NCBI GenBank assembly: GCA_030444405.1
Contig: JARFPM010000026.1
Coordinates: forward strand, 1 to 54,894
Length of the DNA: 54,894 nucleotides
Source: Nitrospira sp.
GTDB lineage: Bacteria > Nitrospirota > Nitrospiria > Nitrospirales > Nitrospiraceae
Reading direction: 5' to 3'
Made by a program: the position numbers and the translations under genes. Below the pieces are notes generated by a model that saw only the letters and a program-made list of their open reading frames with translations, was not told the origin of the DNA and did no database searches. Shown in pieces: positions 2,429 through 43,978 of this stretch; within the stretch, counting starts at the first letter, position 1; the number at the start of each line of letters is the position of its first letter.

Positions 2429-2471
2429 CTTCCTCTCTCTGAGAAACACATCTCCCCATCTCCATTACGCC

Positions 2472-5295: not shown

Positions 5296-5296
5296 G

Positions 5297-6634: not shown

Positions 6635-6649
6635 GAAAACACCGCCGAC

Positions 6650-6668
6650 CGTCATTCGTCATGCGTCA
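6650..6668. repeat. Heptamer direct repeat CGTCATT/CGTCATG
   Basis: The stretch reads CGTCATT CGTCATG CGTCA, nearly three tandem copies of a seven-base unit, in the short gap upstream of waaA. The same unit occurs three times near 53616-53636. Confidence 0.7.
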
Positions 6669-6715
6669 AACATAGAATGACCGGAAGCATTCGCGCTTGG
6701 GGCTGTGCTTGGCGA

Positions 6716-27957: not shown

Positions 27958-28260
27958 CGAGAATATGTAGGCAGGCAGATTATTGTGAAAGATGTGGCAA
28001 TTGGCGACAGGTCACAGCCCATACAGACGGGCGTATGGCAACACTTCAACTGCTTTCATTTGGCTTCAGACCACCTAGGTTAGATGAATACCAAGGCTTC
28101 CGATTTCCGATTACAATGTTGGGGTACTATGAGAATAATGTGGGCTCGATGCCTCTTTCGCCACTCTTACCCAACACAGCTCCTAACCAGCTTCGGCTTG
28201 CAAGTAGCATAAGGCGATCATCAACCCCTATGCACGGCGTGGCAAGGCCCCGTGTCCTCC

Positions 28261-28330
28261 ACCAGCTAGATGTACCGTTATGGTGCGATACGGTAAGAGA
28301 ACCGTACTGCGGTTAGCCGCATCACCTGGT
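28261..28330 (+). ncRNA. Possible structured RNA or attenuator-like fold
   Basis: GGTG (28282-28285) and CACC (28323-28326) enclose two hairpins: TACGGT-aagaga-ACCGTA (28289-28306) and TGCGG-ttag-CCGCA (28308-28321). The first TACGGT can instead pair with TACCGT at 28273-28278, so the region has mutually exclusive stems. No promoter, terminator or downstream plus-strand gene is evident, so it may equally be a DNA element. Confidence 0.3.
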
Positions 28331-28581
28331 CAACAACCCCCTCGTCGGCACAGCGACGTTGGCGACGACAGCGGAGGACGTCCCGGGGTGACAACGATGA
28401 TCGTCCGTGCCATTCGTATTTGAACGGGCCTTGGGATAGGTTAGACCCGCTGATAAATCGATTGCATCCTCTTTTGAAACTGTAGGAAATTTTGGTACCG
28501 GTGCCCGAGTGTTTTCGGAAAGAAAATTCCTAGGATTAAGAGCCAGTTCAACTGCTCCAGCCTGACGCGCTCATTGCCCCC

Positions 28582-28845
28582 TCACGATCGCTTCCCTTGT
28601 TCCTCCGAAGCATTCGCCGCACCCGGCACAGCATCGCTGCTCTCTCCTTGCTCAGGCGAGGTCGGAGACTTAGGTGTCTGACTTTCTCGATGTTCAGAAA
28701 TGAGTGCCGCAGTGATGAGCAGCTGGATGCCGATAAGGAGAAAGAACAAGGCTCCCTTGTACTGCCCGGACTGCTCGGCAATCGAGAACCGGTGCGCGGC
28801 GAGGAGAAGACAGAGCGCCGAGCAGAGGAACAGGAACATTCTCAT
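28582..28845 (-). CDS. Small two-helix membrane protein of unknown function
   Basis: An 87-residue protein. An N-terminal hydrophobic stretch (MFLFLCSALCLLLAA) and a second one (ALFFLLIGIQLLITAALI) predict two membrane helices, followed by a polar tail rich in Ser, Glu and Pro. No family is recognised. It lies upstream of the non-coding region and 115 bases from the end of the M23 peptidase gene, on the same strand. Confidence 0.55.
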   Translation of the reverse strand: MRMFLFLCSALCLLLAAHRFSIAEQSGQYKGALFFLLIGIQLLITAALISEHRESQTPKSPTSPEQGESSDAVPGAANASEEQGKRS

Positions 28846-28960
28846 ACCGAAGCCTCATCTCCCAGGGGCGCGACAGATAGGGTGAGACAGAGAGTATGCG
28901 TGGGACGGGACAAGGTCAATTGGAAATCATACGCACGGCAGGAACAGAAACCGGTCGAAA

Positions 28961-29956
28961 TTACTGTGCAGCCCCCCCCATACTGGACCCAGGATCGGTG
29001 ACTGACACGGGTGCTGCCGATTGCAGGTTCCCGTTGAAGGGAAGATCTAACAGGGCATAGGGGTTGACTCGCGCACCGTTGAGTTTCACGCCCCAATGGA
29101 GATGAGGACCGGTGGCCCGACCGGTCGCCCCCACTTTCCCGAGGATCTGCCCAGCTTTTACCTGATCGCCGTCCTTGACCCGCACCTCGGACAGATGGAA
29201 ATACATCGAATAGAAACCCAACCCGTGGTCCAGAAACACGCCCTTCCCAGAAAAGAAATGATCGACGGTGAGCCGGACGATGCCATCATTCGTCGCTACA
29301 ACATCAGTGCCAAGCGGCGCACTGATATCTTCCCCGTTGTGCGGATTCCGCGGCTGGCCATTCATAACTCTGACGCTGCCGAAGATTCCGGTTCGCTTGC
29401 CGCTCACCGGCTCCACGAAACCGGACTGCCATAGCCTTGCCGGCGAATCGCTGGCCAGTGCCGTTTTCACCTGTTCTTGCTCCGCCTTCCAACGGGCCAA
29501 ACTCTTGTCGTCAAGATCGACCTTGTCTTTAGGCAACGTGAGATGCTCGACGTGAAATTTCTCTTTGACGACTGCTACGCTGTAGCGGACGGTGCGACTC
29601 TGCTCACCGGCCTTCAGCTCGACAGTCAGTTCATGAATCCCCGGTTCGTCCTGCAGGTCTATCCCGAGCAATCCAACAAATCCTTTTGGCTCGTCAAGTC
29701 CTGTCTCACGAAAGAAACGAATGGAACGTCCGAGGAATGTTCCATGCACAGTCGCAGCTGAATCACCAGTCGGCACTTTGACGACGATAATGTGTCCCTG
29801 TTTTCCACTATAGTGGCCATTCGCACCTTGACCGGTCGGTAATGCCCCGGCAAAGAGATCGCCCGGGAGATAAACGGCGAGCAGCATGGCAATGCCAAGT
29901 AGGCACCGCGCCGGCAGAGTACATTGTGGATAATGCAGATCCAGCCTCGGCTTCAT
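28961..29956 (-). CDS. M23 (LytM) family metallopeptidase
   Basis: A 331-residue secreted protein. A signal peptide covers residues about 15-36. The N-terminal part is beta-rich and resembles domains in front of other M23 enzymes (HIIVVKVPTGDSAATVHGTFLGRSIRFF). The C-terminal LytM domain has the zinc-ligand motif HNGEDISAPLGTDVVA, plus DHGLGFYSMYFHLS and GPHLHWGV (HxH). Such enzymes cut peptidoglycan cross-links in the periplasm. All zinc ligands look present, so it is probably active. The ATG at 29956 overlaps the pafA stop as ATGA, which places it as the last gene of the proteasome operon. Confidence 0.9.
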   Translation of the reverse strand: MKPRLDLHYPQCTLPARCLLGIAMLLAVYLPGDLFAGALPTGQGANGHYSGKQGHIIVVKVPTGDSAATVHGTFLGRSIRFFRETGLDEPKGFVGLLGIDLQDEPGIHELTVELKAGEQSRTVRYSVAVVKEKFHVEHLTLPKDKVDLDDKSLARWKAEQEQVKTALASDSPARLWQSGFVEPVSGKRTGIFGSVRVMNGQPRNPHNGEDISAPLGTDVVATNDGIVRLTVDHFFSGKGVFLDHGLGFYSMYFHLSEVRVKDGDQVKAGQILGKVGATGRATGPHLHWGVKLNGARVNPYALLDLPFNGNLQSAAPVSVTDPGSSMGGAAQ

Positions 29957-31347
29957 CGATAAAACCGCCCTCCGGACACTTGAGAAATCAGTTCCTCCAC
30001 CCGTCGATTCACCGCACTGAAGGGGTCCATGCAGAGGATGGTTTCCTCCCAATATCCGTTTAGCTTCAGATACGTCCAATCCACTGTATAGGATCGATTC
30101 TTGGCCCGCGCGAATCGAATGAAATCCCCTCGGACCTTGGCTCTTGTCGTCTGAGGTGGGGTGGACATTGCCCGCTGGACCGCCTCCTCTTCGACAACCC
30201 GTTCGATGAGCCCTCGAGACTCCATCAGGTAATACAACCCTCTCGTCCGCTTCACGTCATGGAACTGCAAATCCAGGAGGAATACCCTCGGATCGTCCCA
30301 CCCGCAATTTTTCTTATCTACGTAGGATTGGATCAGATGCTTCTTCGTGACCCAATCGACCTGATGGGTAAGTTGCATCGGATCTTCTTCCAGCTGCTGG
30401 AGCATCCGCTCCCACTTGTCGTACACATCGTCGAGGATGGGTTCGTGCGCCTGTTGATTCAGGTACTCTCTGGCCCGCTTGAGATAGGCGAGTTGAATTT
30501 CAATGGCGGTCATCTGCCGGCCATCATCGAGTTTCACTCTTTTCTTCAGCGTCGGATCCCGCGAGACCTCTCGAATCGCCTTGACAGGATCCTCGAGTTC
30601 CAACCCATGAACCGTGCACCCCTCTTCGACCATCGACAAGACAAGCGCGGCCGTCCCCACTTTAAGGTAGGTGGCATACTCCGACATGTTGGAATCCCCG
30701 ACGATGATATGGAGGCGCCGATACCGTTCAGCGTCCGAATGGGGCTCGTCGCGGGTATTGATGATGCTTCGGGAAGATGTCGTCGACGAGGACGTCTTCT
30801 CGTGAATATGTTGCGCACGCTGCGAGATGAAATACTGCGGCTTTCCCGATACTTTTAATACTTTTCCTGCCCCGCTGAACACCTGCCTGGTCACGAAAAA
30901 CGGGATCAACTGTTCGGTGACTTTCCAAAAATCGACGTCGCGGCGCATAAGGAAGTTCTCGTGGCATCCGTAGGTATTCCCCAGGGAATCCGTATTATTC
31001 TTGAAAATGTAGATTTCCCCGGATAATCCCTCCTCTCGAAGCCGTTCCTCCGCCGCCGGCAAACAGGCTTCCAACAATCGCTCCCCCGCTTTATCGTGGA
31101 CCACGAGGTCCAGGATATTGTCGCACTCCGGCGTAGAGTACTCAGGATGACAGCCGGTATCCTGATAAAAGCGCGCTCCGTTGACCAAGAATGCGTTCGA
31201 AGGCCAGCTGTTCGGAATCAGCCCTTCAAAGATATACCCCAAGACTTTTTCCATGGGGAGATAGATGCGGCCGTTGGGGGAAAAGATGAGACCGTATTCG
31301 TTCTCGAGGCCGTAAATCCGTTGTTTCATAGGACCGGCAGACATCAT
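29953..31347 (-). CDS. pafA: Pup ligase family protein PafA
   Basis: PafA ligates the C-terminal Glu of a ubiquitin-like modifier (Pup or UBact) to substrate lysines for proteasomal degradation, using ATP, in the cytoplasm. The 464-residue protein belongs to the carboxylate-amine/glutamine synthetase-like fold and closely matches the actinobacterial family: IYGLENEYGLIFSPNG at the N-terminus, YSTPECD, IFKNNTDSLGNTYGCHENFL, IINTRDEPHSDAERYRRLHIIVGDSNMSE, and PPQTTRAKVRGDFIRFA, ending near FTVDW-like YTVDWTYLKLNGY. The sequence ENEYG, rather than ETEFG, and its similarity to PafA separate it from Dop. Start ATG at 31347 has GAAGG six bases upstream. It follows prcA by 72 bases. Confidence 0.93.
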   Translation of the reverse strand: MMSAGPMKQRIYGLENEYGLIFSPNGRIYLPMEKVLGYIFEGLIPNSWPSNAFLVNGARFYQDTGCHPEYSTPECDNILDLVVHDKAGERLLEACLPAAEERLREEGLSGEIYIFKNNTDSLGNTYGCHENFLMRRDVDFWKVTEQLIPFFVTRQVFSGAGKVLKVSGKPQYFISQRAQHIHEKTSSSTTSSRSIINTRDEPHSDAERYRRLHIIVGDSNMSEYATYLKVGTAALVLSMVEEGCTVHGLELEDPVKAIREVSRDPTLKKRVKLDDGRQMTAIEIQLAYLKRAREYLNQQAHEPILDDVYDKWERMLQQLEEDPMQLTHQVDWVTKKHLIQSYVDKKNCGWDDPRVFLLDLQFHDVKRTRGLYYLMESRGLIERVVEEEAVQRAMSTPPQTTRAKVRGDFIRFARAKNRSYTVDWTYLKLNGYWEETILCMDPFSAVNRRVEELISQVSGGRFYR

Positions 31348-31419
31348 GAAAGGCCTTCAGACAGATTACACCCCGTTTTGTGGATCTTCAACAAAGGAAG
31401 CCTCTACGAAAGGCAGAGG

Positions 31420-32106
31420 TCAGGGAGAGAGGATGAGTCGAACGTCGGCAATCGATACCCGGCGAAACTTTCGGCCGGCACGGGTTCGGTCCAAGACCGC
31501 GACTTCCAACCCTTCCGGCTGCAGCTTTTGATTGGCTGTCTGCTCCAGCGCCGTGACACACAGCTTCAGTGCAGCGTCCAAGGACGGCGCCTGGCTGGGA
31601 CTTTTTTCCTTCAACACGGTTTGTACCGCCTCAGACCTGCCGCCGATCACCGCAAAGTTCTTCTCGTCGATGATGCTGCCGTCAAAGGATATGCGATAGA
31701 TTTCGTTCGGGTAATTGTTGGTACCAGCCTGCACCACAAGGATCTCCACCTCAAGTGGCTTCATTTCCTGACTGAATACGGTCCCAAGGCTTTGAGAATA
31801 CCCGTTCGCCAGAGAGCGGCCCGTGACGTCTTCGCGGCTGTACATGAACCCTTTGAGGTCAGCGTGACGGATTCCCGCCTTTCGAAGGTTCTCAAACTCG
31901 CTGTACTTGCCGGCTCCCGCAAACGCGATGTTGTCGTAGATCTCGGAAACTTTGTGCAGCGAGGCGCTCGGATTGTCCGCCGTCAACAGAATGCCGTCGA
32001 CATACTCCATCGCGATGATCGAGCGGCCCTTGGCAATCCCCTTCTTGGCATACTCAGCCTTATCCTGCATCATCTGTTCTGGGGACACGTAATAGGGCAT
32101 CGGCAT
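31420..32106 (-). CDS. prcA: 20S proteasome alpha subunit
   Basis: PrcA forms the outer heptameric rings of the 20S core and docks the ATPase. The 228-residue protein matches the actinobacterial subunit: PYYVSPEQMMQDKAEYAKKGIAKG at the N-terminus (the gate-forming segment), ADNPSASLHKVSEIYDNIAFAGAGK, YSREDVTGRSLANGYSQSLGTVF and LEVAVLDRTRAGRKFRRV. The frame continues upstream of the ATG at 32106 but overlaps prcB; this ATG is two bases after the prcB stop and has GGGAG eight bases upstream. prcB is directly upstream and pafA downstream. Confidence 0.95.
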   Translation of the reverse strand: MPMPYYVSPEQMMQDKAEYAKKGIAKGRSIIAMEYVDGILLTADNPSASLHKVSEIYDNIAFAGAGKYSEFENLRKAGIRHADLKGFMYSREDVTGRSLANGYSQSLGTVFSQEMKPLEVEILVVQAGTNNYPNEIYRISFDGSIIDEKNFAVIGGRSEAVQTVLKEKSPSQAPSLDAALKLCVTALEQTANQKLQPEGLEVAVLDRTRAGRKFRRVSIADVRLILSP

Positions 32107-32108
32107 AA

Positions 32109-32924
32109 TTACGTCTCCCGTGAACGACGTGCCGCCATCACATCGTTGCACACGGCACGCATGGTGTCGTCGGATACATCGGTGATGCCTTGGGCCGTCA
32201 CGACCTTGGCCGTGGGATAAATGCCCCGCACGAGATCCGGTCCGCCGGTCCCGACATCGTCATCCGCGGCATTGTAGAGCGCCAACAAGGCTAGTTTGAT
32301 CGCGTCCCCCTCGGAGAGGTGCCGCTGAAAATGTTCGCGCATCGTGTTACGGGCATCTTTCCCACCGGAACCGATCGCATGGTAATCGGACTCTTCGTAC
32401 CTCCCGCCGGTGATGTCGTACTTGAAGATGCGGCCCTCACCACGTTTCAAGTCATATCCGACGTACAACGGCATGACGACCAGCCCCTGGAACACCATCG
32501 GAAGATTGGCCTTGACCATTTGGCCCAATTTATTGGCCTTCCCTTCACAGGAAAGCGGCATGCCTTCCAGTTTTTCGTAATGTTCCAACTCGGTCTGAAA
32601 TAACTTGGCCATCTCGATGCAAGGACCGGCCGCCCCAGCGATCGCCATAGCAGACCAGTCGTCGATCTTGAAGACTTTTTCGATTCGGCGATCCGCGATC
32701 TGAAACCCTTCCGTGGCTCGGCGGTCTCCGGCAATCACAACGCCCTGCTGATACTTGATGGCCAGCACGGTCGTGGCAGAAGGCACAGCAACCGGCCCAA
32801 CGGCGCGCACCTGGTCGGGAACGGCCGTCATGCCGTGGCTTCGTAATGCCAACTCAGGATGATGCGTTGAGACGAAGTCAAAAAAACTGGAGCCGTCGTG
32901 ATCGGTGAGATAGGGCAGCTTCAT
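32109..32924 (-). CDS. prcB: 20S proteasome beta subunit
   Basis: PrcB carries the threonine protease of the bacterial proteasome. From the ATG at 32924 (AAGGA upstream) the precursor is 271 residues. A propeptide of 50 residues ends VAVPSA, and the mature protein would begin TTVLAIKY. Counting from that Thr, Asp falls at 17 (AGDRR) and Lys at 33 (RIEKVF), exactly as in active beta subunits, so it looks catalytically intact. Later blocks are YHAIGSGGKDARN and GTGGPDLVRGIYPT, very like mycobacterial PrcB. It lies 23 bases after dop and just before prcA. The frame to 32951 is probably too long. Confidence 0.96.
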   Translation of the reverse strand: MKLPYLTDHDGSSFFDFVSTHHPELALRSHGMTAVPDQVRAVGPVAVPSATTVLAIKYQQGVVIAGDRRATEGFQIADRRIEKVFKIDDWSAMAIAGAAGPCIEMAKLFQTELEHYEKLEGMPLSCEGKANKLGQMVKANLPMVFQGLVVMPLYVGYDLKRGEGRIFKYDITGGRYEESDYHAIGSGGKDARNTMREHFQRHLSEGDAIKLALLALYNAADDDVGTGGPDLVRGIYPTAKVVTAQGITDVSDDTMRAVCNDVMAARRSRET

Positions 32925-32947
32925 CGTGATCCTTGAACCACCGTTCG

Positions 32948-34447
32948 TCAAACCTTGAGCTTCTCGATCAGGGCATCGACCGAATCGGTTGCATCAAGCA
33001 ACTCCCGCGTCAACGCCTGCGTCCCTCGATGGGGGTCCATCAGCGGCACTTTTTTGATCGTCGTATTACCGACGTCGAACAGCACCGACGTCCAACTGGC
33101 CCCATAGAGCACCTTCGCAAACTTACTGACACAGCGCCCACGAAAATAGGCCCTGGTTCCGGTCGGAGGGTTCAATTCAGCACGCTGAATCTCGTCTTCC
33201 TCAACGATCCGTTCGATGAGTCGACTACGCTCCAGGGTATAAAATAATCCCTTGTCCGGACGGACGTCATGGTATTGGAGATCCATCAGCTTTATGCGCG
33301 GATCATCCCATCCGCAGCCTTTACGCTCCATATACGACTCGATCATATGTCGCTTGGCGATCCAATCCAACGTGTTCACCAACAGCCGCGGATCGCGATC
33401 GAGCTGGTTCAGAACATCCTCCCAACGACGCAATACGTCGTGAGTGGTAGGGCTGTGATCCTGCGAGGCATAAAAAGTCTTGGCGGCGTTTAGATACACC
33501 CGCTGGACGGCAAGAGCCGTAGTGGGCCTTCCACCGGCCAGTTTCACAGTTTCCTTCACATCCAGATCGCGCGACACCTGCTTGAACGCACGAACCGGCT
33601 CATCCAGTTCGAGCTGAGGCAGATCGGCTCCTGACTCAAGCAAATCCAAGACGATGTCCAACGTTCCCACCTTCAAATAGGTGGAGAGTTCGGCCATGTT
33701 GGCGTCGCCCGTGATGACATGCAGTCTCCGAAACCTGGCCGCATCGGCATGCGGCTCGTCACGCGTATTGATGATCGGCCGTTTGACCATCGTGTTGAGA
33801 TCCATGAGACATTCGAAAAAGTCGGCGCGCTGCGAGATTTGATATTCCGTCGGGCTGGTCTGATTTTCAGCCCCGACTTTTCCTGCTCCGGCGAAGATCG
33901 GTCTGGTGACCAGGAACGGCGTCAACACCCGAGCGATCCTGTCGAACGGAACAGCCCTCGAGACCAAATAATTTTCGTGGTATCCGTAGCTGTTACCCTT
34001 GCCGTCGGAGTTGTTCTTGTACAGGACATACTGTTCGGCTCCCCTTGCCCGAGCCATTTCCTGAAGGCATTTGGCCAGAATGCGTTCTCCGACTCGTTCG
34101 AACGCCACCACCTCCCTGGCGCTCGAACACTCCGGCGTCGAGTATTCCGGATGAGCTCCGTCGACATATAAACGTCCGCCGTTCGCCAGCACCTTGTTCA
34201 GCTGCCTGTTATAGTCGGGATTGGGGCGCTCTCGTTCACCATCGACTTCAAATCCACGAGCATCCACGAGGGGATTTTCGTTCTCGTAATCCCAGAGCGC
34301 CCCCGGAGCCGGCAATCCTGGGTAATGTCCAATCACGGCGAAGGAGCCTGACACAGGGTCCATCGCAGATGGATCTCTTGACGCAATGCCGAACTCGGTT
34401 TCAGTGCCAAGCACGCGCAAGCGATTCGTGGCTGTATGGTCTGGCAT
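32948..34447 (-). CDS. dop: Deamidase/depupylase Dop
   Basis: Dop deamidates the modifier's C-terminal Gln where needed and removes it from substrates. From the ATG at 34447 the protein is 499 residues, the usual length. It begins LRVLGTETEFGI (the Dop-type ETEFG), then has HPEYSTPECSS, LYKNNSDGKGNSYGYHENYL, RPIINTRDEPHADAARFRRLHVITGDANMAE, and PPTGTRAYFRGRCVSKFA near the C-terminus. The frame upstream of 34447 overlaps the ARC gene and is a shadow. Both dop and pafA are in this operon. No ribosome-binding sequence is obvious, so the ATPase gene ending at 34455 may drive translation. Confidence 0.94.
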   Translation of the reverse strand: MPDHTATNRLRVLGTETEFGIASRDPSAMDPVSGSFAVIGHYPGLPAPGALWDYENENPLVDARGFEVDGERERPNPDYNRQLNKVLANGGRLYVDGAHPEYSTPECSSAREVVAFERVGERILAKCLQEMARARGAEQYVLYKNNSDGKGNSYGYHENYLVSRAVPFDRIARVLTPFLVTRPIFAGAGKVGAENQTSPTEYQISQRADFFECLMDLNTMVKRPIINTRDEPHADAARFRRLHVITGDANMAELSTYLKVGTLDIVLDLLESGADLPQLELDEPVRAFKQVSRDLDVKETVKLAGGRPTTALAVQRVYLNAAKTFYASQDHSPTTHDVLRRWEDVLNQLDRDPRLLVNTLDWIAKRHMIESYMERKGCGWDDPRIKLMDLQYHDVRPDKGLFYTLERSRLIERIVEEDEIQRAELNPPTGTRAYFRGRCVSKFAKVLYGASWTSVLFDVGNTTIKKVPLMDPHRGTQALTRELLDATDSVDALIEKLKV

Positions 34448-34454
34448 AGGTTCG

Positions 34455-36224
34455 CTAGAGATAGTGGCCGGTACTGATGGTTTCAATCTGCCGATGTTCG
34501 GCAGGTCCACCGCTGATGGTCCGGAGATGAATGATTTTCTCGCCCTTCTTTCCCGCGACCTTTGCCCAATCGTCCGGATTGGTCGTATTGGGGAGATCTT
34601 CGTGTTCCTTGAACTCCTCACGGATGGCGCGGATCAAGTCGTCCGAGCGCAGGCCGGCTCCCTCTTGCGCGATCACGCGCTTCACGGCAAATTTTTTCGC
34701 GCGCGAGACGATTCCTTCGATCAAGGCTCCGCTGGCGAAGTCCTTGAAGTACAGCACTTCCTTTTCGCCGTTGGCGTAGGTCACTTCGATGAACTTATTT
34801 TCCTCGCTGGCGGCATACATGGTCTCAACCGTCAGCGCCGTCAATCGATCGACAAGGGCCTGACGATCACCTCCATGCCGTTCCAACTCCTCGCCGGCAA
34901 AAGGGAGGTCCGTCGAAATATATTTGGAGAAAATGTCACGAGCCGCTGTGGCATCCGGTCGCCCCACTTTGACCTTGACGTCCAATCGCCCGGCTCGAAG
35001 CACCGCCGGATCGATCAAATCCTGGCGGTTGCTGGCCCCGATGACGATGACGTTGCGCAATCGCTCGACCCCATCGATCTCGGAGAGAAACTGTGGAACA
35101 ATCGTCGACTCGATATCCGAAGACACACCGGTCCCCCGGGTTCTGAAGAGCGCATCCATCTCATCGAAGAATACGATCACCGGATGACCGTCCTCTGCCC
35201 GTTCTTTCGCCTTCTTAAAGACCTCGCGCACCTGACGCTCCGATTCACCGACATACTTATTGAGCAGTTCCGGGCCTTTCACATGAAGAAAGTAGCTGCG
35301 TATTTCTTTACCGGTACGGTGGCCCAATTTCTTGGCGATCGAATTGGCGACGGCTTTGGCGATCAGCGTCTTCCCGCAACCGGGCGGGCCATAGAGCAGA
35401 ACCCCTTTCGGTGCGCTGAGCTTGTACTCGGAGAATACGTGCGGATGCAGGAACGGAAGCTCGACGGCATCGCGTACCTGCTCCAATTCTTTCTGGAGGC
35501 CTCCGATGTGTTCATAGTCGACATCCGGAACCTCTTCCAATACGAGCTCTTCCGCTTCGGACTTAGGCAACTTCTCGATGACATACCCGGAACGAGGATC
35601 ATACAACAGATGGTCCCCCACACTCAGCCGCTCAGCGAGCAACGGGTCGCCGAGCTCGGCCACCTTCTCCTCATCGAAATGGAGCGTGACCAATGCCCGT
35701 CCCCCTTCCAGCACATCTTTGAGTCGAACCACCTCTCCCTGACTGTCGAACCCCTTGACCTCGATCACGTTGAGCGCCTCGTTCAGAACGACTTCTTGTC
35801 CCTTCCGCAACTCATTGCGCTTGATCGTGGGATGAAGACTGACCTTCATTTTCCGTCCCGACACATAGACATTTCCGGTACCGTCCGCATTCATGCTGGA
35901 AAAAATGGCATACGCCGACGGCGGCGCCGTCAGTTTTTCCACCTCGGTACGCAACGCCTCGATCTGTGCCTTCGCTTCCTGCAGCGTGGCCACGAGTTTT
36001 TCATTCTGCTTATTGGCTTGATCGAGTTGGTAGCGTGATTGGTAGAGCCGACGGATCTCTTCCTCCATCGACTGAATCTGAACGCGAAGCTTTTCCATCT
36101 CGCGCGCGTGTTCGTCGTTCTTGTGAATCATCTCCCCATTCCCCTCGGACAGCCGCTTCGTAATTTTCTTGACAGAATCTCGGAGGGACCGGAGTCGATT
36201 TGGCTGGCCCTTGCTTTCCGCCAT
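34455..36224 (-). CDS. arc: Proteasome-activating AAA ATPase (ARC/Mpa)
   Basis: This ATPase unfolds tagged substrates and feeds them into the 20S core. From the ATG at 36224 it is 589 residues: a basic N-terminus, a coiled coil (residues about 30-95), two OB-type beta domains (about 96-245), and a AAA+ domain with Walker A GPPGCGKTLIAKA, Walker B VIVFFDEMDALF and sensor region GASNRQDLIDPAVLRAGRLD. The protein ends TGHYL, a C-terminal Hb-Y-X-like motif like the GQYL of mycobacterial Mpa that opens the proteasome gate. The promoter at 36286-36314 drives it and probably the whole cluster. An ATG at 36260 would extend it by 12 residues. Confidence 0.94.
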   Translation of the reverse strand: MAESKGQPNRLRSLRDSVKKITKRLSEGNGEMIHKNDEHAREMEKLRVQIQSMEEEIRRLYQSRYQLDQANKQNEKLVATLQEAKAQIEALRTEVEKLTAPPSAYAIFSSMNADGTGNVYVSGRKMKVSLHPTIKRNELRKGQEVVLNEALNVIEVKGFDSQGEVVRLKDVLEGGRALVTLHFDEEKVAELGDPLLAERLSVGDHLLYDPRSGYVIEKLPKSEAEELVLEEVPDVDYEHIGGLQKELEQVRDAVELPFLHPHVFSEYKLSAPKGVLLYGPPGCGKTLIAKAVANSIAKKLGHRTGKEIRSYFLHVKGPELLNKYVGESERQVREVFKKAKERAEDGHPVIVFFDEMDALFRTRGTGVSSDIESTIVPQFLSEIDGVERLRNVIVIGASNRQDLIDPAVLRAGRLDVKVKVGRPDATAARDIFSKYISTDLPFAGEELERHGGDRQALVDRLTALTVETMYAASEENKFIEVTYANGEKEVLYFKDFASGALIEGIVSRAKKFAVKRVIAQEGAGLRSDDLIRAIREEFKEHEDLPNTTNPDDWAKVAGKKGEKIIHLRTISGGPAEHRQIETISTGHYL

Positions 36225-36285
36225 ATCGGGACGACACAAATAGCTCGCCGGATCGAGCATAAACGCGAATAATTCTGGTGATCGG

Positions 36286-36314
36286 ATTCTAACACCCGAC
36301 CTAGGGGTGGTCAA
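36286..36314 (-). promoter_or_regulatory. Promoter of the proteasome operon
   Basis: On the minus strand TTGACC (36314-36309), a 17-base spacer and TAGAAT (36291-36286) each match the sigma-70 consensus at five of six bases. The transcript would start near 36279, about 55 bases before the ATPase gene. Confidence 0.7.
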
Positions 36315-36365
36315 CTCCAACGGACGAATCTCGCGCGAGTCTCGTCCCCGCCGTGCACCGCCGTC

Positions 36366-36992
36366 TCACGTTTCCAGCGCATGTTTGAACTCTCGGACGG
36401 CTTCGCCGACGTCATCACGAGCCAACAGCGCTCCGATCGCGGCAACTCCGAAAGCACCGGCTCGACGAACGTCGCGCACTCGTTCACACGTGATTCCTCC
36501 AATGGCAAGCACGGGGATGGACGATCGGCGGCAGACATCGGCCAGCAGATGAAGCCCCATCGGGGGCCCGAACCTACGCTTCGACGGAGTCGAAAAAATC
36601 GGACCAAACACGACATAATCGGCACCGCCTTCATTCGCACGTCGCACATCCTCGACTGAATGGGTGGAGACTCCAATCAATCGACGGGGTCCGATCATCT
36701 GACGCACAGTGGGGAGAGGCAGGCTGTCAGATCGAAGATGCACGCCGTCCAAATTCAGTACCATCATCAGATCGACGCGATCGTTGACGATCAAAGGAAC
36801 GGCGTGCGACCTCGTGATCGCCTGGATCTCCTGCGCCAGCGGAAGCAATTCGCCCGTCGAGAGATCCCGTTCCCGAAGTTGAACGGCGGGCAACCCGGCG
36901 CTGACTGCCTGTCGGATAAGAGATGGAAGGGATCGACCGCCTGCTTGAGTCCTGTCGGTGACGAGCAGCAGACGGAAGTTAACGGATGGCAT
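36366..36992 (-). CDS. thiE: Thiamine-phosphate synthase (ThiE/TenI family)
   Basis: A 208-residue TIM-barrel protein that likely joins the pyrimidine and thiazole halves into thiamine phosphate. Visible blocks are LLLVTDRTQAG, VQLRERDLS, PLIVNDRVDLM, GVHLRSDSLP, IGVSTHSVEDVRRANEGGADYVVFGPIFST and VLAIGGI. The usual GVHLGQ is GVHLRS here, so a TenI-type thiazole tautomerase is a possible alternative, although its place beside thiS and thiG fits ThiE. The ATG at 36992 follows a 76-base gap after thiG that contains a dispersed repeat. Confidence 0.82.
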   Translation of the reverse strand: MPSVNFRLLLVTDRTQAGGRSLPSLIRQAVSAGLPAVQLRERDLSTGELLPLAQEIQAITRSHAVPLIVNDRVDLMMVLNLDGVHLRSDSLPLPTVRQMIGPRRLIGVSTHSVEDVRRANEGGADYVVFGPIFSTPSKRRFGPPMGLHLLADVCRRSSIPVLAIGGITCERVRDVRRAGAFGVAAIGALLARDDVGEAVREFKHALET

Positions 36993-37047
36993 GTCCGAAG
37001 AAGGTACGTTCCAATCGATCTCGAACGTGAAGTCTCACGACATGTAC

Positions 37048-37066
37048 GCTGGCGGACTTTTTCAGC
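37048..37066 (-). repeat. Dispersed repeat copy 1
   Basis: Read on the minus strand this is GCTGAAAAAGTCCGCCAGC. A near copy (17 of 19 bases) lies at 47951-47969. The flanking bases form a GCTGG/CCAGC stem. Confidence 0.55.
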
Positions 37067-37072
37067 ATCCAG

Positions 37073-37846
37073 CTAGAGCATCCCCTCGATCGGACTACTC
37101 GCCGTCGCGTAGAGTTTCCTGGGAATGCGACCGGCCTTGTAGGCCAAACGACCAGCATGAACCGCGTACTTCATCGCTTCCGCCATGGCGAGGGGATCCT
37201 GTGCGCCGGCAATGGCCGTATTCATGAGTACTGCGTCTGCGCCGTATTCCATCGCCAAGGCCGCGTCCGACGCGGTTCCGACACCGGCATCGACGATAAT
37301 CGGCACCTTGACGGTTTCCATGATGATTTTCAGATTGTACGGATTACGAATCCCGAGCCCTGATCCGATGGGCGCGGCTAAGGGCATGACCGCCGGACAT
37401 CCGATATCCACCAGCTTCTTCGCGACAATTGGGTCGTCATTCGTGTAGGGAAAGACGATAAATCCTTCCTTAATGAGGATCTTGGCGGCTTCGATCAAAC
37501 CGGCCGTATCCGGGAACAACGTCCTCTCGTCACCGAGCACTTCCAACTTCACCAAATCGGACACACCGGCCGCGCGAGCTAGACGCGAGTATCGCACCGC
37601 ATCCTCGACGGTATAGCATCCGGCCGTGTTGGGAAGAATCGTGTATTTCTTCGGATCGATGTAATCGAGCAGATTGTCTTTCGAGCGATCGGTGATATTC
37701 ACTCGACGAACCGCGACCGTCACGACATCGGCACCGGACGCTTCAATGGCCTTTTGCGTCTCGACAAAGTCTTTGTATTTTCCCGTTCCGACCCATAACC
37801 GGGACTTGAATTCGCGTCCGGCAATCACTAATCGATCGTCCGTCAT
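37073..37846 (-). CDS. thiG: Thiazole synthase
   Basis: ThiG builds the thiazole phosphate of thiamine from deoxyxylulose phosphate, dehydroglycine and the sulfur carried on ThiS thiocarboxylate. The 257-residue TIM-barrel protein has [21 protein letters not shown], where the Lys forms part of the active site region, then [49 protein letters not shown] and [32 protein letters not shown]. It follows thiS on the same strand, in the standard order. Confidence 0.96.
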
Positions 37847-37916
37847 CGTTATCCTCTCCGGAACATATTCCCGGCCCCACCAACCACAGGCGGCTTAATG
37901 AAGATGAGAGAACCGC

Positions 37917-38159
37917 TCAATCCTTTGCCTTTGCCGCGGCGCCGCCGCCGATAAACCCAAGGATCTCGACCCGATCCCCACTTTGGAGCTGACGTTGACC
38001 AAACACCGCCCGATCGAGGATTTCCAGATTCAGCTCCACCGCTACCCGCTCCGTTCGTATATCCAGGTCTTGCAACAGATCGGCGACCGTTGCGCCACTG
38101 CGCCAGGTCCGTTCCTGCCCGTTCACATGGATGCGGATTGCGTCTTGCACGCCTGTCAT
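37917..38159 (-). CDS. thiS: Sulfur carrier protein ThiS with C-terminal extension
   Basis: ThiS is a ubiquitin-like beta-grasp protein whose C-terminal Gly-Gly carries sulfur as a thiocarboxylate. The 80-residue protein has IRIHVNGQERTW, a helix VADLLQDLDI, VAVELNLEILDR, and GDRVEILGFIGGG. Normal ThiS stops at that Gly-Gly. Here it continues with AAAKAKD for seven residues before TGA at 37919-37917. The extension would have to be clipped before the carrier could work, unless the stop is wrong or this copy does something else. A TTGACA at 38186-38181 upstream may be its -35 box, but its -10 is poor. Confidence 0.85.
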   Translation of the reverse strand: MTGVQDAIRIHVNGQERTWRSGATVADLLQDLDIRTERVAVELNLEILDRAVFGQRQLQSGDRVEILGFIGGGAAAKAKD

Positions 38160-38207
38160 CCTATGAGAAGGGAATTCGCCTTGTCAACAAAATGACCCCT
38201 TGCCTGA

Positions 38208-38720
38208 ATGACCGAGGAAACCGCACAATACACCTCTAAGGTCCACCGCATGAAGGAGAACAATCAACGACTGGCCACGCTCTTCAGGTCGATGGCTGAT
38301 CTTCTGTCATCTCAACGGGCGAACCCTTATCGAGTCAGGGCCTATCGGCGGGCTGCAGATGCCCTACTTGCCATCGATGAAGATGTGGCGACACTGGCCG
38401 AACGCCAGGAGCTTGAAGACATCGAGGGGATCGGAGCCGATCTGGCGAAAAAGATCGAGGAATTTCTTGAGACCGGGACCATTCGCGCCTACGAGGAGCT
38501 TAAAACCCCGCTCCCGACAGAGGTCACAAGTTGGGTGAGCCTTCCGGGACTCTCCGAATCACTCGTGGCCTATTTGTACTTCCGCCTGGGCATTCGGACG
38601 CTCCCTGATCTCGATCAGCTCATTCGATCTCACCTGCTTCGAACCCTGCCGAGTTTCTCAGGATCAGAGGAGCAGTTGTTGCAGGCCGTCCGACAACGGA
38701 TCCAAAATCACGAGCCTTAG
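38208..38720 (+). CDS. Helix-hairpin-helix protein related to the PolX N-terminal domain
   Basis: A 170-residue protein. Residues about 20-95 resemble the N-terminal 8-kDa domain of family X DNA polymerases: NQRLATLFRSMADLL, NPYRVRAYRRAADAL and the helix-hairpin-helix LEDIEGIGADLAKKIEEFLETG. A second HhH-like region is SLPGLSESLVAYLYFRLGIRTLPDLDQL. The nucleotidyltransferase and PHP domains of PolX are absent. It is likely a DNA-binding protein, role unknown. It is divergent from thiS; its stop overlaps that of the S41 peptidase on the other strand by three bases. Confidence 0.7.
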   Translation: MTEETAQYTSKVHRMKENNQRLATLFRSMADLLSSQRANPYRVRAYRRAADALLAIDEDVATLAERQELEDIEGIGADLAKKIEEFLETGTIRAYEELKTPLPTEVTSWVSLPGLSESLVAYLYFRLGIRTLPDLDQLIRSHLLRTLPSFSGSEEQLLQAVRQRIQNHEP

Positions 38721-40072
38721 GAACTCTTGAGTTCCTTGAATATCTTCCAGCTCTTCAGCAATTCCACCGCCTTCTGCAGCTGGACGTCCTGCTCAAGTGA
38801 AAGCTCTCCGCCCATTTCCGGCAAGGCCGACGGAGGCGTCCCGCTCTTCGAGCCTCCTTCGTCCGGAGACTTCCCATTCTGTGGTGCGGCATCTTTCCCC
38901 ATTGGAGGCTTCACAGCCTTTGACTCCGCCTCCTTCTCAACAGGCTTCCCATCAGCCGCTTTGGCCACTGAGGGCGCCGGCAGTTTCACCGCGATATCAG
39001 GAGTAATCCCGGTCGACTGGATCGACCGACCCTTTGGCGTATAGTACTTCGCGGTCGTGAGGCGAAGCCCTGAACCATCGCCTAAAGCCAAGATTGTCTG
39101 CACCGACCCTTTTCCGAACGAGGTTGTCCCAACCACGACGCCCCGCCCCCAATCTTGCAGCGCCCCGGCTACGATCTCCGACGCACTCGCCGATCCCTCG
39201 TTGACGAGAACGATGACCGGGAGGTCTTCCAGTTGATCCTTGGACTTCGCAAACCATTCGTCCTTTTTCCCTTCCCGACTCTTGGTATACACAACCAGCT
39301 TCCCGCTGGGAAGAAATTGCTCGGACACATCGACGGCCGCGGTCAGCAAACCGCCGGGATTGTTTCGTAGGTCGAGAATAGTTCCTTGGACCTTCTGTTC
39401 CTTGAACTGTTTGATCGCTTTGGAAAGGTCTCGCCCGGTCGCTTCCTGAAACTGAGTGAGCCGGACATAGCCGAGGTTGTCGATGACCTTCGACTTTACG
39501 CTTTCAATCTTGATGGTGTCCCGGACGAGGGTGAATACCAATGGATCCGGTGTCCCATCCCGTTGAATGGTGAGATTGACCTTACTGCCTTTCGGCCCGC
39601 GCATCTTCTGAACGGCATCCATCAACGTCAGGTCCTTCGTGGAGTCGTCGTTGACTTTAATGATGAAATCGCCGGCTTTGATCCCAGCTCGATACGCGGG
39701 AGTACCTTCGATCGGCGCGATCACGGCCAGCCGGTTGTCCTTCACACCGATTTGGATACCGACTCCCCCGAATTCTCCCCTGGTTTCAACCTGCATCTCT
39801 TTATACATTTCAGGCGTCATATAGGCTGAGTGCGGATCGAGCGTCGACAGCATACCGCGAATGGCCCCTTGGATCAGATCCTTCGGCTTCGTCTCGTCGA
39901 CATAGTGCTTTTGAACCTGATTCAGGACCTCGGAGAAGGTTTTGAGCTCCTCATAGGTTTCCCCGGCATGACCGGTCCGCTCCCAACCTTTTCCGATGAC
40001 TACTCCACCGAGCAGCGCAAGGGCAATCATCGGCACGACCACCCAAGACTTCTTCCGAGGCTGCTGATCCAT
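38717..40072 (-). CDS. S41 family C-terminal processing peptidase (CtpA-like)
   Basis: About 451 residues. An N-terminal membrane helix (VVVPMIALALLGGVVIGKGW) anchors it or serves as a signal, followed by a PDZ domain (GGVGIQIGVKDNRLAVIAPIEGTPAYRAGI, residues about 90-165) and the S41 protease domain. The Ser is in VNEGSASASEIVAGAL and the Lys in GTTSFGKGSVQT, the usual Ser-Lys dyad. LDLRNNPGGLL is the family's hallmark strand. CtpA-type enzymes trim cell-wall hydrolases and other envelope proteins. A Pro/Lys/Ser-rich spacer near residue 375 precedes the end. The ATG at 40072 fits the signal; the frame continues upstream. Confidence 0.88.
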   Translation of the reverse strand: MDQQPRKKSWVVVPMIALALLGGVVIGKGWERTGHAGETYEELKTFSEVLNQVQKHYVDETKPKDLIQGAIRGMLSTLDPHSAYMTPEMYKEMQVETRGEFGGVGIQIGVKDNRLAVIAPIEGTPAYRAGIKAGDFIIKVNDDSTKDLTLMDAVQKMRGPKGSKVNLTIQRDGTPDPLVFTLVRDTIKIESVKSKVIDNLGYVRLTQFQEATGRDLSKAIKQFKEQKVQGTILDLRNNPGGLLTAAVDVSEQFLPSGKLVVYTKSREGKKDEWFAKSKDQLEDLPVIVLVNEGSASASEIVAGALQDWGRGVVVGTTSFGKGSVQTILALGDGSGLRLTTAKYYTPKGRSIQSTGITPDIAVKLPAPSVAKAADGKPVEKEAESKAVKPPMGKDAAPQNGKSPDEGGSKSGTPPSALPEMGGELSLEQDVQLQKAVELLKSWKIFKELKSS

Positions 40073-40136
40073 AATCTTCACATCCCTTCTTTCCTGCGTT
40101 TTCGGCCGCTCAGACTCGATACCGACAATGCACGTC

Positions 40137-41321
40137 TTATCGTTTTGCCAGCCAGTGGAGCGGATCAACCGGCTCGGCCCCTTCACGCAACTCGAAGTAT
40201 AGAGTATTTTCCCCAATCATGCCCGTATCACCGGTCTCTCCGATAGGTTGACCTTCGGCAACTTGCTCACCCGCTTTGGCCAGAATCTTGGACGCATGTG
40301 CATACAGGGAGAAAAACCCGTTCGCATGATCTAAGATTATAACGAGTCCGTATCCTTTCAACCAGTCCGCATAGACGACGCTTCCGGTCATGACGGCATG
40401 GATTAAGCTTCCCTCTGTAGTTCGGATTTCAATGCCTTTGCGCTGGACATAGGTATTGAACGTCGGGTGTTTCTGACGCCCGAAGAATGACACGACTTTT
40501 CCATCAGCCGGCCAAGGCAGTGTTCCCCTCACTCCATGAGCCAAAGGTGAAGACGTCGGAGGGTGCACGGCGATGGCACGTCGGCGCGTTTCCAAATCGT
40601 GCAACAAGCCATCCACACGTGAAGCGGAACGCTCCAGTTCTTCGACTGTGCGATTATAGGAGTCTTTTTCGTGCGTGATCTTCGCCAGATAGACCTTTTT
40701 CTCCTTCTGAAGCCCTCGGATGTCGGCCAACTTCTTCTCGATGTTCAGCTTGAAGGCGACCAGTACGGCTCTGGCCTCGGCGCGCTGATGCTCAGCCTGC
40801 TCCATCCGCTCCATATCGGCTCGAAACGTCTCCAGCAATTCGTAGTCCTTGTGTGAAACGGCAGAGAGGTATTGACCGCGACGCTGAAAATCACCGTACG
40901 AGTCCGCAGTTAAGAGAGTCTTCACACGCCCAAACCGTCCTTCCATATACTGCACGCGAAGCCGGGCAAGAATGGCCTCACGTCTTGCATCAATGCTGGT
41001 TCGCATCGCCCCCAGCTGGTCCGTAATCTCTTCGATTTCCCGATCCTTCCGTCGCAGCTTTTTGCTGATCTCATGATGATCTTGCCGATGCCGGACCAGT
41101 CGTTCATCCAGGGATTGGATACCTTGCAGGACCGACTCTCGCTTTTTCTCTGCTTCCTCGGCCCGTTTTCGCTTTTCTTCGATCTTGTCCTTCAGAGTCT
41201 CAAGAGTCTTTCTCTCACGCTCAATTTTTTCGGAGATCGGATCATTCGCCGCACCCGCCACCGATGCCCACCCTCCTCCCACCGCAAGGCACCAGAGTAG
41301 GATGGCAAAGGAAATTCTCAT
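40137..41321 (-). CDS. EnvC-like murein hydrolase activator
   Basis: About 394 residues with a signal peptide (ISFAILLWCLAVGG, cleavage near GAA). A long coiled coil follows (residues about 27-245, rich in Glu, Lys and Arg), then a C-terminal LytM domain. In that domain, GVRGTLPWPADGKVVSFFGRQ and LDHANGFFSLYAHASKIL are visible, but the zinc ligands look incomplete (GIEIRTTEG in place of HxGxD, TLYFELREG in place of HxH). This matches EnvC, which activates amidases through FtsEX rather than cutting the wall itself. Its ATG at 41321 overlaps the ftsX stop as ATGA. Confidence 0.9.
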   Translation of the reverse strand: MRISFAILLWCLAVGGGWASVAGAANDPISEKIERERKTLETLKDKIEEKRKRAEEAEKKRESVLQGIQSLDERLVRHRQDHHEISKKLRRKDREIEEITDQLGAMRTSIDARREAILARLRVQYMEGRFGRVKTLLTADSYGDFQRRGQYLSAVSHKDYELLETFRADMERMEQAEHQRAEARAVLVAFKLNIEKKLADIRGLQKEKKVYLAKITHEKDSYNRTVEELERSASRVDGLLHDLETRRRAIAVHPPTSSPLAHGVRGTLPWPADGKVVSFFGRQKHPTFNTYVQRKGIEIRTTEGSLIHAVMTGSVVYADWLKGYGLVIILDHANGFFSLYAHASKILAKAGEQVAEGQPIGETGDTGMIGENTLYFELREGAEPVDPLHWLAKR

Positions 41322-42217
41322 GTCCGCCCTTCCCCAACACGAAGAAGCGATACCACGCTGCCGGCAAAGCCAAGCCCCATTCCCGCCATGACGAGCGCCA
41401 GACACACCGAGAAGGGAAAGAAAGAGATCATGCCTTCGATCCCGCTGAAACGGCCCGTCAATTGAATCTGCTGCCGGAACAGTTCAAACGCGAACTTGAG
41501 AATTCCTAACGACAGCGCGCTGCCACAGACTCCGAGCACGGCTCCTTCGAGAAAATATGGAATACGGATGAACGTGCGCGTGGCTCCGATCGAGCGAAGG
41601 ATTTCAATCTCCTCCCGTCTGGCCAACAGCGCGAGCCTGATGGTATTCCCGATGATCGTCACTGCGGCCGCGGAGAGGAGGATACCAACCCCGATCGCCG
41701 CCAGCTCGATATATCCGATAAGTTCGGCCAGCAGACTGAGCCATTCTTGATTATAGTCGACCTTGGCGACACCTTCCATTGTTTGCACTCGTTCAACCCA
41801 GCCTTTCATGGCGTCCGGAGACCGGAAGTTCGGCGCAAGGGTCACCACGAACGAAGCCGGCAGCGGGTTCTCACCGAGCCCTTCGAGCAAGTGAGACTCA
41901 CTGGGGAATTGAACTCGAAATTCTCCCAACGCCTGTTCTTTCGAAATAAAAAGCACCTCGGCAACCATACGATCGATCTTGAGTTTTCGCTCCAGTTCCT
42001 GCACCCTTTCTCTGGGAAATCGATCCTCCAAATAGACCATGACCTTGACATCTTCCTGGAGCGACCCCGCTGCGTTGCGTAGATTCACATAGAGCAACAG
42101 AAAGATGCCCACACAGGCCAAGGCAAACGCCGTGGTCAGAACGGCAACGATCGTGGTCGTGCGATTGGTCCGCATGTTCGCCCACGCTTCGCGAACGAGA
42201 TAAAATGGTTTTCTCAT
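41318..42217 (-). CDS. ftsX: Cell division ABC permease FtsX
   Basis: FtsX is the membrane part of the FtsEX complex that links the divisome to peptidoglycan hydrolysis through EnvC. The 299-residue protein has a first membrane helix (TTTIVAVLTTAFALACVGIFLLL), an extracellular domain (residues about 45-160, with VMVYLEDRFP and LGENPLPASFVV), then three helices near residues 170-280 with RREEIEILRSIGATRTFIRIPYFLEGAVLG between. That motif is the FtsX/MacB permease signature. It overlaps ftsE by four bases and the EnvC-like gene by four bases. Confidence 0.95.
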   Translation of the reverse strand: MRKPFYLVREAWANMRTNRTTTIVAVLTTAFALACVGIFLLLYVNLRNAAGSLQEDVKVMVYLEDRFPRERVQELERKLKIDRMVAEVLFISKEQALGEFRVQFPSESHLLEGLGENPLPASFVVTLAPNFRSPDAMKGWVERVQTMEGVAKVDYNQEWLSLLAELIGYIELAAIGVGILLSAAAVTIIGNTIRLALLARREEIEILRSIGATRTFIRIPYFLEGAVLGVCGSALSLGILKFAFELFRQQIQLTGRFSGIEGMISFFPFSVCLALVMAGMGLGFAGSVVSLLRVGEGRT

Positions 42218-42903
42218 ACTCCGACCCCTTGCCCGATCCGCCGCTCCGACAACAACACCCCTTGCACCAACGTAATCACCCGCCGATTCACTTGATTCAA
42301 GACATGAGGGTCGTGCGTCGCGACGACCACGGTCGTCCCTCGGGCATTGATTAATTTGAACAACTCCATGATCTCTCGTGTGCGTTCCGGATCAAGATTG
42401 CCCGTTGGTTCGTCGGCCAGGAGCACCACCGGGCCGTTGACGATTGCCCGTGCAATGCACACACGCTGCTGCTCGCCCGTGGAGAGACTGTTCGGCAACT
42501 GATCTTTTTTGTGATCGACATCGACCGCGCGCAATGCCTCCGTGACTTTACGACGGATATCTTTCTCGGAGGCACCTTGAACGATCAACGGAAGCGCCAC
42601 ATTGTCGAAGACGGATTTCTTCGGCAAGAGACGAAAGTCTTGAAAGACCGCGCCGACTTTGCGTCGAAGATAGGGAACCTCGGTCGGTCGGAGCTTCGTC
42701 ACATTCCTGCCGTGAACGAAAATCTGTCCTTCGTCCGGCTGCTCCTCACCGATCAGCATACGCAGCAGAGTAGACTTCCCGGCCCCGCTTGATCCCATAA
42801 GAAGGACAAACTCCCCCTTTTCGATCTCGAGCGTGACATCGGACAGTGCGGCTTTTCGGTCATGCCATTTGGACACATGGATGAGTTGAATGATGGCATC
42901 CAT
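42214..42903 (-). CDS. ftsE: Cell division ATP-binding protein FtsE
   Basis: FtsE is the ATPase of the FtsEX complex. The 229-residue protein has Walker A LLMGSSGAGKSTLLRML, a Q-loop at VGAVFQDFRLLP, the signature LSTGEQQRVCIARAI, Walker B VVLLADEPTGNLD, and the switch His in VVVATHDPHVLN. The VFQDFRLLP segment is characteristic of FtsE. The ATG at 42903 has AAGGA upstream. It stands 21 bases after yraN and overlaps ftsX. Confidence 0.96.
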   Translation of the reverse strand: MDAIIQLIHVSKWHDRKAALSDVTLEIEKGEFVLLMGSSGAGKSTLLRMLIGEEQPDEGQIFVHGRNVTKLRPTEVPYLRRKVGAVFQDFRLLPKKSVFDNVALPLIVQGASEKDIRRKVTEALRAVDVDHKKDQLPNSLSTGEQQRVCIARAIVNGPVVLLADEPTGNLDPERTREIMELFKLINARGTTVVVATHDPHVLNQVNRRVITLVQGVLLSERRIGQGVGV

Positions 42904-42924
42904 GGAAATTCCTTCGGAGAAGGG

Positions 42925-43314
42925 CTAGAACCTTCCGTGTTCGACGACGTCAAACGCGTTCTGGAGATGTTCGATCCGTCCCTGGTCGGGAGGTCTCCCC
43001 TGGACCAACACCACATCGAATCGACAGGCCTTATCGGACCAATGTCGTCGCGCTAAATACTGTGAGGCCAGTTTCGTCAGCTTCACCCGCTTGCGCTGAT
43101 TCACCGCCAGCAGAGCACCACCGAAGGCTTCCGTGGTCCGACCCTTGACCTCGACAAAGACCACAACGCCCTGGTCTTCCGCCACGAGGTCCAATTCGCC
43201 GAGAGAGGTCCTTACGTTGCGATCGAGAATTCGATAACCCTTGGCCAGCAAGAACTGTTCGGCCTGCATTTCGCTGGCTTGGCCGAACTGATGGCGCGGG
43301 TCGGGAGTGGCCAT
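42925..43314 (-). CDS. YraN family (UPF0102) nuclease-fold protein
   Basis: A 129-residue protein of the restriction-endonuclease-like UPF0102 family. Blocks seen are ASEMQAEQFLLAKGYRILDRNVRTSLGELDLVAEDQGVVVFVEVKGR, with the D and E-x-K metal-binding set (GELDLV, VEVKGR), and KRVKLTKLASQYLARR. The biological role is not settled. It starts five bases after rnhB and is commonly adjacent to it in many genomes, which fits here. Confidence 0.9.
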   Translation of the reverse strand: MATPDPRHQFGQASEMQAEQFLLAKGYRILDRNVRTSLGELDLVAEDQGVVVFVEVKGRTTEAFGGALLAVNQRKRVKLTKLASQYLARRHWSDKACRFDVVLVQGRPPDQGRIEHLQNAFDVVEHGRF

Positions 43315-43318
43315 GCGC

Positions 43319-43978
43319 TTATTGTTCGAACAGTGTGGAGAGCATCCGTCGGGCCGACTCCCTCTTCGCGGCGATGATCAGCTCATGCACCGGCATGAAT
43401 GTTCGTCGATGAATGGAGCACGGGCCATAGCGCGCCAATCGTTGCAGATGTCCTGTCGTGCAATATCCCTTATGCGAGAGAAAATCGTATTCGGGGAACA
43501 TTTCATGGTATTTCGCCATGAGACGATCTCTCGTGACTTTGGCGATGATGGAGGCAGCCGCAATCGATAGGGAGAGGGAGTCTCCCTTGATGATGGACCG
43601 TACAGGGATTTTGCTTCCTGGAAGAGTAACGGCATCAATGAGTAGATAATCAGAGGGGGGAGTCAGTTGATCGATGGCTCGCCGCATCGCTAGCCGGGTC
43701 GCTTTGAGAATATTGAGCCGATCGATTTCGCCGACGTCGGCCGATCCGATTCCCATCCCCACGGCTTGCTCAAGAATAGCGGCATACAATCGGTCTCGCT
43801 CCCCTTCAGAAAGCTGCTTGGAATCATCGATTCCTGACAGTCGACACCGGGTCGGTAGGACGACAGCAGCGGCGACGACCGGACCGGCTAACGGACCGCG
43901 TCCGGCCTCATCGATACCGGCAATACGACGATACCCACACAGCCTGGCCGCCCGCTCGAACTCTTCGGTGGGTCCCAT
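43319..43978 (-). CDS. rnhB: Ribonuclease HII
   Basis: RNase HII removes single ribonucleotides from DNA and degrades RNA in RNA-DNA hybrids. The 219-residue protein has the acidic-site motif GIDEAGRGPLAGPVVAAAV (the D-E pair), DSKQLSEGERDRLY, LLIDAVTLPG and ASIIAKVTRDRLM, with further metal ligands. The ATG at 43978 (AAGG eight bases upstream) is preferred to a GTG at 43993. It lies between rplS and yraN in the translation operon. Confidence 0.95.
   Translation of the reverse strand: MGPTEEFERAARLCGYRRIAGIDEAGRGPLAGPVVAAAVVLPTRCRLSGIDDSKQLSEGERDRLYAAILEQAVGMGIGSADVGEIDRLNILKATRLAMRRAIDQLTPPSDYLLIDAVTLPGSKIPVRSIIKGDSLSLSIAAASIIAKVTRDRLMAKYHEMFPEYDFLSHKGYCTTGHLQRLARYGPCSIHRRTFMPVHELIIAAKRESARRMLSTLFEQ

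Follow-up and report, generated by a model that had tools for sequence, protein, structure and literature searches.

Thiamine gene thiS and its C-terminal extension

In the textbook account the sulfur carrier ThiS has Gly-Gly as its C-terminus and requires no maturation, and it is the free carboxylate of the last glycine that E1-like enzymes adenylate. A thiS gene from Nitrospira sp. runs past this point and raises the question of whether its product has to be trimmed and by which enzyme. The gene is located at 37917..38159 on the minus strand of the window, the 54,894-nucleotide stretch of contig JARFPM010000026.1 analysed here, and encodes 80 residues ending GFIGGGAAAKAKD. Residues 1-73 form a core that closes with FIGGG and are followed by the tail AAAKAKD, which bears out the first-pass annotation of seven residues past Gly-Gly. 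The cap codons and the TGA stop occupy 37917..37940 on the minus strand. This part contains a repeat of the GCAAAG codon pair (Ala-Lys), and the nearest relative (L012/L153) has one unit more, as slippage would give.

Judged by its sequence the product is a bona fide ThiS, with 71.3 bits against TIGR01683 (cut-off 37.45) in a profile search and 52.1 bits against PF02597, and the ThiS family was the sole Pfam match. The 64-position TIGR01683 model stops at residue 73, the last glycine of GGG, leaving seven residues over. The solved ThiS chains of B. subtilis (1tyg_B, 87/87), E. coli (1f0z, 66/66) and 2cu3 (64/64) stop at the same position, while chain 2k5p_A reads GGGK. In the AlphaFold model the beta-grasp core was confident, with pLDDT values of 88-97 for residues 11-70 compared to 46 in the last block and below 50 at residues 72-74 and 77-80, and the tail is thus predicted to be disordered. 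The encoded protein lacks a Gly-Gly end, and mature ThiS would have one only if the cap is cut off. Since it is the carboxylate of the terminal glycine that is adenylated the cap must probably come off, and its removal from ThiS is regarded as very likely. The product is probably the normal ThiS of the thiazole pathway, translated as a precursor with a cap.

Extensions in the order and the phylum

ThiS-like matches were identified in 284 of the 295 genomes of the phylum sample, which includes 98 genomes from the order of the window (40 from the same genus including its own, 39 from the same family and 19 from the same order). A tail was present in 94 of the 95 order genomes with a readable thiG-linked ThiS and ranged from 1 to 34 residues past GGG. 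The earlier statement that such carriers must end in Gly-Gly is therefore not true of this order, and the suggested comparison with related genomes found the tail to be common to them. The nearest relatives carry AAAKAKAKD, AAAKD, TAAKD, TSTKA, GAAKS, ISVKD and TSTNA. Named relatives, nearly all titled Nitrospira or Nitrospiraceae/Nitrospirae, have at least one residue past GGG in 80 of 80 loci. The single order genome with a thiG-linked ThiS that ends at GGG is G229 (L308), which also carries a JAMM protease gene, so the tail is not obligatory. That the tail is never lost had held across 82 genomes and was ruled out by G229 once the remaining readable order genomes were added. In the other three order genomes (G208, G199 and G202) the ThiS matches were cysteine-synthase-linked copies only. 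Outside the order, 70 genomes with thiG-linked cases, in addition to unlinked ones, were chosen from 197 by match rank and family spread. A tail or fusion was present in 37 of these and 33 ended at GGG.

Close relatives ending at Gly-Gly, together with a sequencing error in this genome, had been put forward as the outcome that would overturn the first reading, and the relatives turned out to carry tails instead. Nothing was found in favour of a sequencing or annotation artefact or a decaying gene; the assembly (G000) is in 170 contigs. Differing tails occur in independent assemblies, among them the complete chromosomes of N. moscoviensis, with a 20-residue tail, and Ca. N. defluvii, where ThiS ends GGGAR. 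The core is also strictly conserved, with 28 columns invariant among 28 aligned ThiS including F69-I70-G71-G72-G73, and with nearly every order genome tailed an artefact or decay is scarcely credible.

The tails themselves changed frequently. On a ThiG tree of 82 order genomes at least 34 changes of tail length were counted by parsimony. Twenty-seven loci with no thiG within reach of ThiS were omitted from the tree, being cysteine-synthase-linked copies and others such as those of G003, G013, G022, G031, G005, G240 and G024. Among 56 loci with tails of at least 10 residues 37 end at or inside thiG, suggesting for many of them read-through into the region around the thiG start. Both the sequence and the length of the tail vary freely, the first residue after GGG being the exception. 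A tail that is kept and used, for example in regulating ThiS or in blocking premature activation until a cleavage signal, would fit with its absence from just one of 95 order genomes despite the many length changes. This is improbable given lengths of 1-34 residues and no conserved sequence past the first residue.

The first residue after GGG

The first tail residue (P1') was Ser, Ala, Thr, Cys or Gly in 79 of the 82 order genomes used for parsimony. These were 82 of the 95, and in the last 13, added later, all 12 tails begin with Ala, Ser, Thr or Gly. At least 25 residue changes were counted at P1', of which only three left the small set, while at the next position (P2') 20 of 76 residues were small and 16 of 39 changes crossed the boundary of the set; these counts are approximate as they derive from a quick tree with many weak branches. 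Under a null of single-mutation codon neighbours 53-65% of the P1' changes would be expected to leave the set (binomial p 2e-5 or less), and the two positions differed by Fisher test (p 0.023). Proline was found in none of 161 distinct tails at P1' and in 17 of 144 at P2'. A bias to small P1' residues was not significant outside the order (20/37 vs 10/30, p 0.14). A rule of small residues and no proline that applies to the first tail residue alone fits a site-specific cut after GGG.

Gene neighbourhood and the proteasome operon

Downstream of thiS after a 70-base gap is thiG, encoding thiazole synthase (37073..37846; PF05690, 377.6 bits), followed by thiE for thiamine phosphate synthase (36366..36992; TIGR00693, 172.3 bits). 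Adjoining thiSGE is the gene for the Mpa/ARC proteasome ATPase (34455..36320; TIGR03689, 736.5 bits), an open reading frame whose true start is probably further in. The genes for the depupylase Dop (32948..34447; TIGR03688, 550.7 bits), the proteasome subunits PrcB (32109..32951; PF00227, 131.1 bits) and PrcA (31420..32151; PF00227, 72.6 bits) and the Pup ligase PafA (29953..31347; PF03136, 525.4 bits) follow in this order. The Dop start at 34447 is a Met chosen ahead of the first aligned residue. All eight genes from thiS to pafA are on the minus strand, and no riboswitch or other RNA family reached the gathering score in 28000-43500. About 220 extra bases separate dop and prcB in six of the compared loci (L160, L163, L164, L167, L177 and L178). 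Divergent from thiS is a gene (38208-38720, plus strand) for a stand-alone helix-hairpin-helix protein that resembles the N-terminal part of DNA polymerase X and was matched near thiS in 13 of 13 stretches fetched from relatives.

The first-pass annotation had noted the nearby proteasome operon, which lacked a visible modifier, and offered a link to ThiS as speculation. The proximity is real, as thiSGE precedes mpa in 62 of 62 named Nitrospira loci with at least 7 kb downstream, and a tailed ThiS acting as a protein modifier for the adjacent proteasome might be read into this conserved arrangement ahead of mpa-dop-prcB-prcA-pafA (mpa being the gene counted). However, a standard Pup gene, apart from the proteasome operon, was identified on another contig (G000:C64:3251-3439; L297 1411-1692) with 77 bits against a cut-off of 27, and its product ends QKGGE. 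Its domain begins at residue 31 of the open reading frame and the true start is therefore probably internal, and its neighbours, as read from translations, are a membrane pyrophosphatase and RecJ. Dop and PafA are present as well, and ThiS has no Pup-family match in Pfam, is followed by ThiG and matches the sulfur carrier as an equivalog. A role of ThiS as the missing modifier was rejected once Pup was found and is regarded as extremely improbable; the conserved neighbourhood implies no functional link. The UBact literature consulted offered nothing useful for this locus.

A JAMM protease and E1-like enzymes in the genome

Only two ThiF-family genes were detected in the genome at E 0.001, both on a contig of 8169 bases (G000:C163). 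Both products resemble MoeB, and neither reaches the ThiF equivalog cut-off TIGR02356. Also encoded on this contig is a JAMM protein (6220-6729) with a PF14464 domain (6238-6681) of 67.3-67.9 bits against a cut-off of 25, in which the HSHPHDPARPSVTD stretch, which we take to be the JAMM motif, is intact. The region 1522-6729 (L041) consists of genes for a ThiS-like protein, cysteine synthase, MoeB, threonine synthase, a SAMP1-like MoaD, a small protein with no NCBIfam match, a second MoeB and the JAMM protein. As both E1-like genes of the genome are in this cluster the E1 serving ThiS, whichever it is, would come from there. The ThiS-like protein ends GGGR and the MoaD ends GG, the latter suggesting possible protein conjugation besides sulfur transfer. 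In all 21 loci read, the cysteine-synthase-linked ThiS-like protein carried a cap or was part of a fusion.

Fusions were observed elsewhere in the phylum, with in-frame ThiS-like/cysteine synthase genes in L135 (G264), L137 (G001) and L145 (G185) and in-frame ThiS-ThiG genes in L084 (G107) and L133 (G243). The G243 fusion, in which ThiG is very divergent, comes from a contig of 4 kb and could be foreign DNA. Both types of fusion would likewise need a cut after GGG.

The proposal that the precursor needs cleavage is supported by tails common to relatives and by the JAMM and two ThiF/MoeB genes in the genome. The search that had been advised for an associated protease or ThiF found the JAMM and the ThiF-family genes, on a contig unlinked to thiSGE. 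The JAMM of contig C163 is the candidate protease for ThiS and is considered the probable one. Alternatively, the cap might be removed by a general protease or carboxypeptidase, the JAMM serving only the cysteine-synthase-linked ThiS-like protein or desampylating targets of the SAMP1-like MoaD. The lack of linkage to thiSGE would suit this alternative, as would the closest NCBIfam match of the JAMM, a desampylase, although this was at 46.6 bits below the cut-off of 130. It is weakened by the strong constraint at P1' alone, by the grouping of both E1 genes with the JAMM in one cluster and by a Streptomyces case in which one JAMM is described as serving capped carriers (PMC6006322).

Co-occurrence of the extension with JAMM genes

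PF14464 was detected at E 1e-5 in 276 of the 295 phylum genomes and in 96 of the 98 from the order, a search that cannot separate processing JAMMs from other JAMMs. Three genomes without a JAMM (G234 and G018 within the order and G076 outside) also had no ThiF hit at E 1e-10, so that their cluster is probably unassembled. In G118 and G122 there are E1 genes and a tail on ThiS but no detectable JAMM (nothing at E 5 in G118 and a best value of 0.07 in G122), and the JAMM-negative G243 carries its ThiS-ThiG fusion plus a tail-less ThiS.

Of the genomes outside the order with a thiG-linked ThiS, 60 were JAMM-positive and 10 JAMM-negative; tails were present in 33 of the former and 4 of the latter, with no significant difference (Fisher p 0.50). 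The p value was 0.14 when four JAMM-negative genomes of the f14 family, whose ThiS ends GGG and was not thiG-linked in the fetched stretch, were added, and 0.064 when G076, with no ThiF, was dropped as well. The ThiG tree held only three supported independent tail/JAMM pairs, too few for an association to be demonstrable on it. Co-occurrence as proof of a JAMM role was not significant and was dropped; it neither proves nor excludes the JAMM. The lack of a significant association across the phylum, together with the tailed G118 and G122, would fit removal of the cap by a general protease, a reading that in view of the P1' constraint and the clustered genes is nonetheless rated as rather unlikely.

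Proposed maturation of ThiS

Under the preferred reading, cleavage by the JAMM, maturation would start from the beta-grasp core ending FIGGG with its seven extra residues, the form seen in the gene. From known chemistry the cap would be taken off before adenylation by an E1-like enzyme. The JAMM metalloprotease may cut after GGG whatever the tail, provided that its first residue is small; the candidate is G000:C163:6220-6729, clustered with both E1-like genes, the second capped ThiS-like protein, cysteine synthase and the SAMP1-like MoaD. One of the C163 MoeB-type E1 enzymes would then adenylate ThiS, and the ThiS thiocarboxylate would feed ThiG. Removal of the tail would let its sequence and length drift, often to whatever precedes or opens thiG.

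A wider and more tentative possibility is that the core thiamine pathway of an entire bacterial order depends on precursors in the style of ubiquitin. One trans-acting JAMM and two E1 enzymes would then be a common hub in which several carriers, namely ThiS, the cysteine-synthase carrier and those of the MoaD set, are uncapped and charged. Such a hub would leave thiS tails free to evolve, even into the in-frame polyproteins (ThiS-ThiG and ThiS-CysK) of other parts of the phylum.

If true, an order-wide capped ThiS would bring precursor maturation into a core vitamin pathway and the JAMM protease would be conditionally essential for thiamine in Nitrospira. It would also illustrate how variable tails and fusions are accommodated in ubiquitin-like precursors, and cloned ThiS of these organisms would be inactive unless trimmed.

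Comparison with known systems

Capped carriers matured by JAMM enzymes have already been published, and the apparent novelty here is that ThiS of the thiazole pathway is capped across an order and served in trans. A literature search found no report of capped ThiS in Nitrospira, which is weak evidence of absence as 'ThiS' is inseparable from 'this' in such searches. QbsE of thioquinolobactin synthesis is, like the ThiS described here, a capped ThiS-like carrier and is uncapped by the JAMM protease QbsD, but it belongs to a specialised siderophore pathway and its protease is encoded in the same gene cluster.

Capped sulfur carriers are described as typically needing a protease such as QbsD (PMC6006322). 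In Streptomyces platensis these are PtmS2 (cap MV) and PtmS3 (cap C) with the JAMM protease PtmS1, and deletion of the single JAMM gene abolishes product, the capped carriers being left unused (PMC6006322). Shared with Nitrospira are a short cap after GG, the presence of one JAMM in the genome and an E1-type enzyme, in that species a MoaZ homologue (PMC6006322). In contrast to the carrier described here PtmS2 and PtmS3 feed thiocarboxylic-acid antibiotics and one of them is clustered with the JAMM (PMC6006322), whereas in Nitrospira the carrier is a ThiS encoded next to thiG and apart from the JAMM, and its caps reach 34 residues in relatives.

MoaX of Mycobacterium tuberculosis requires a cut between Gly82 and Ser83, made by a protease left unidentified in that report (PMC4326299). 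The GG-Ser cut frees the Gly-Gly end of a MoaD, and its P1' residue, Ser, is also that of many tails described here, although MoaX, unlike this ThiS, is a MoaD-MoaE fusion (PMC4326299). ThiS-ThiG fusions have been described in proteobacteria and Rubrobacter, and JAB cleavage was suggested for fused ThiS/MoaD in a 2006 survey, which reports thiamine operons to be free of JAB genes (PMC1779556). As in those fusions the Gly-Gly of the Nitrospira ThiS is not at the protein end, the difference being that they are full fusions while ThiS in the window carries a short tail (PMC1779556).
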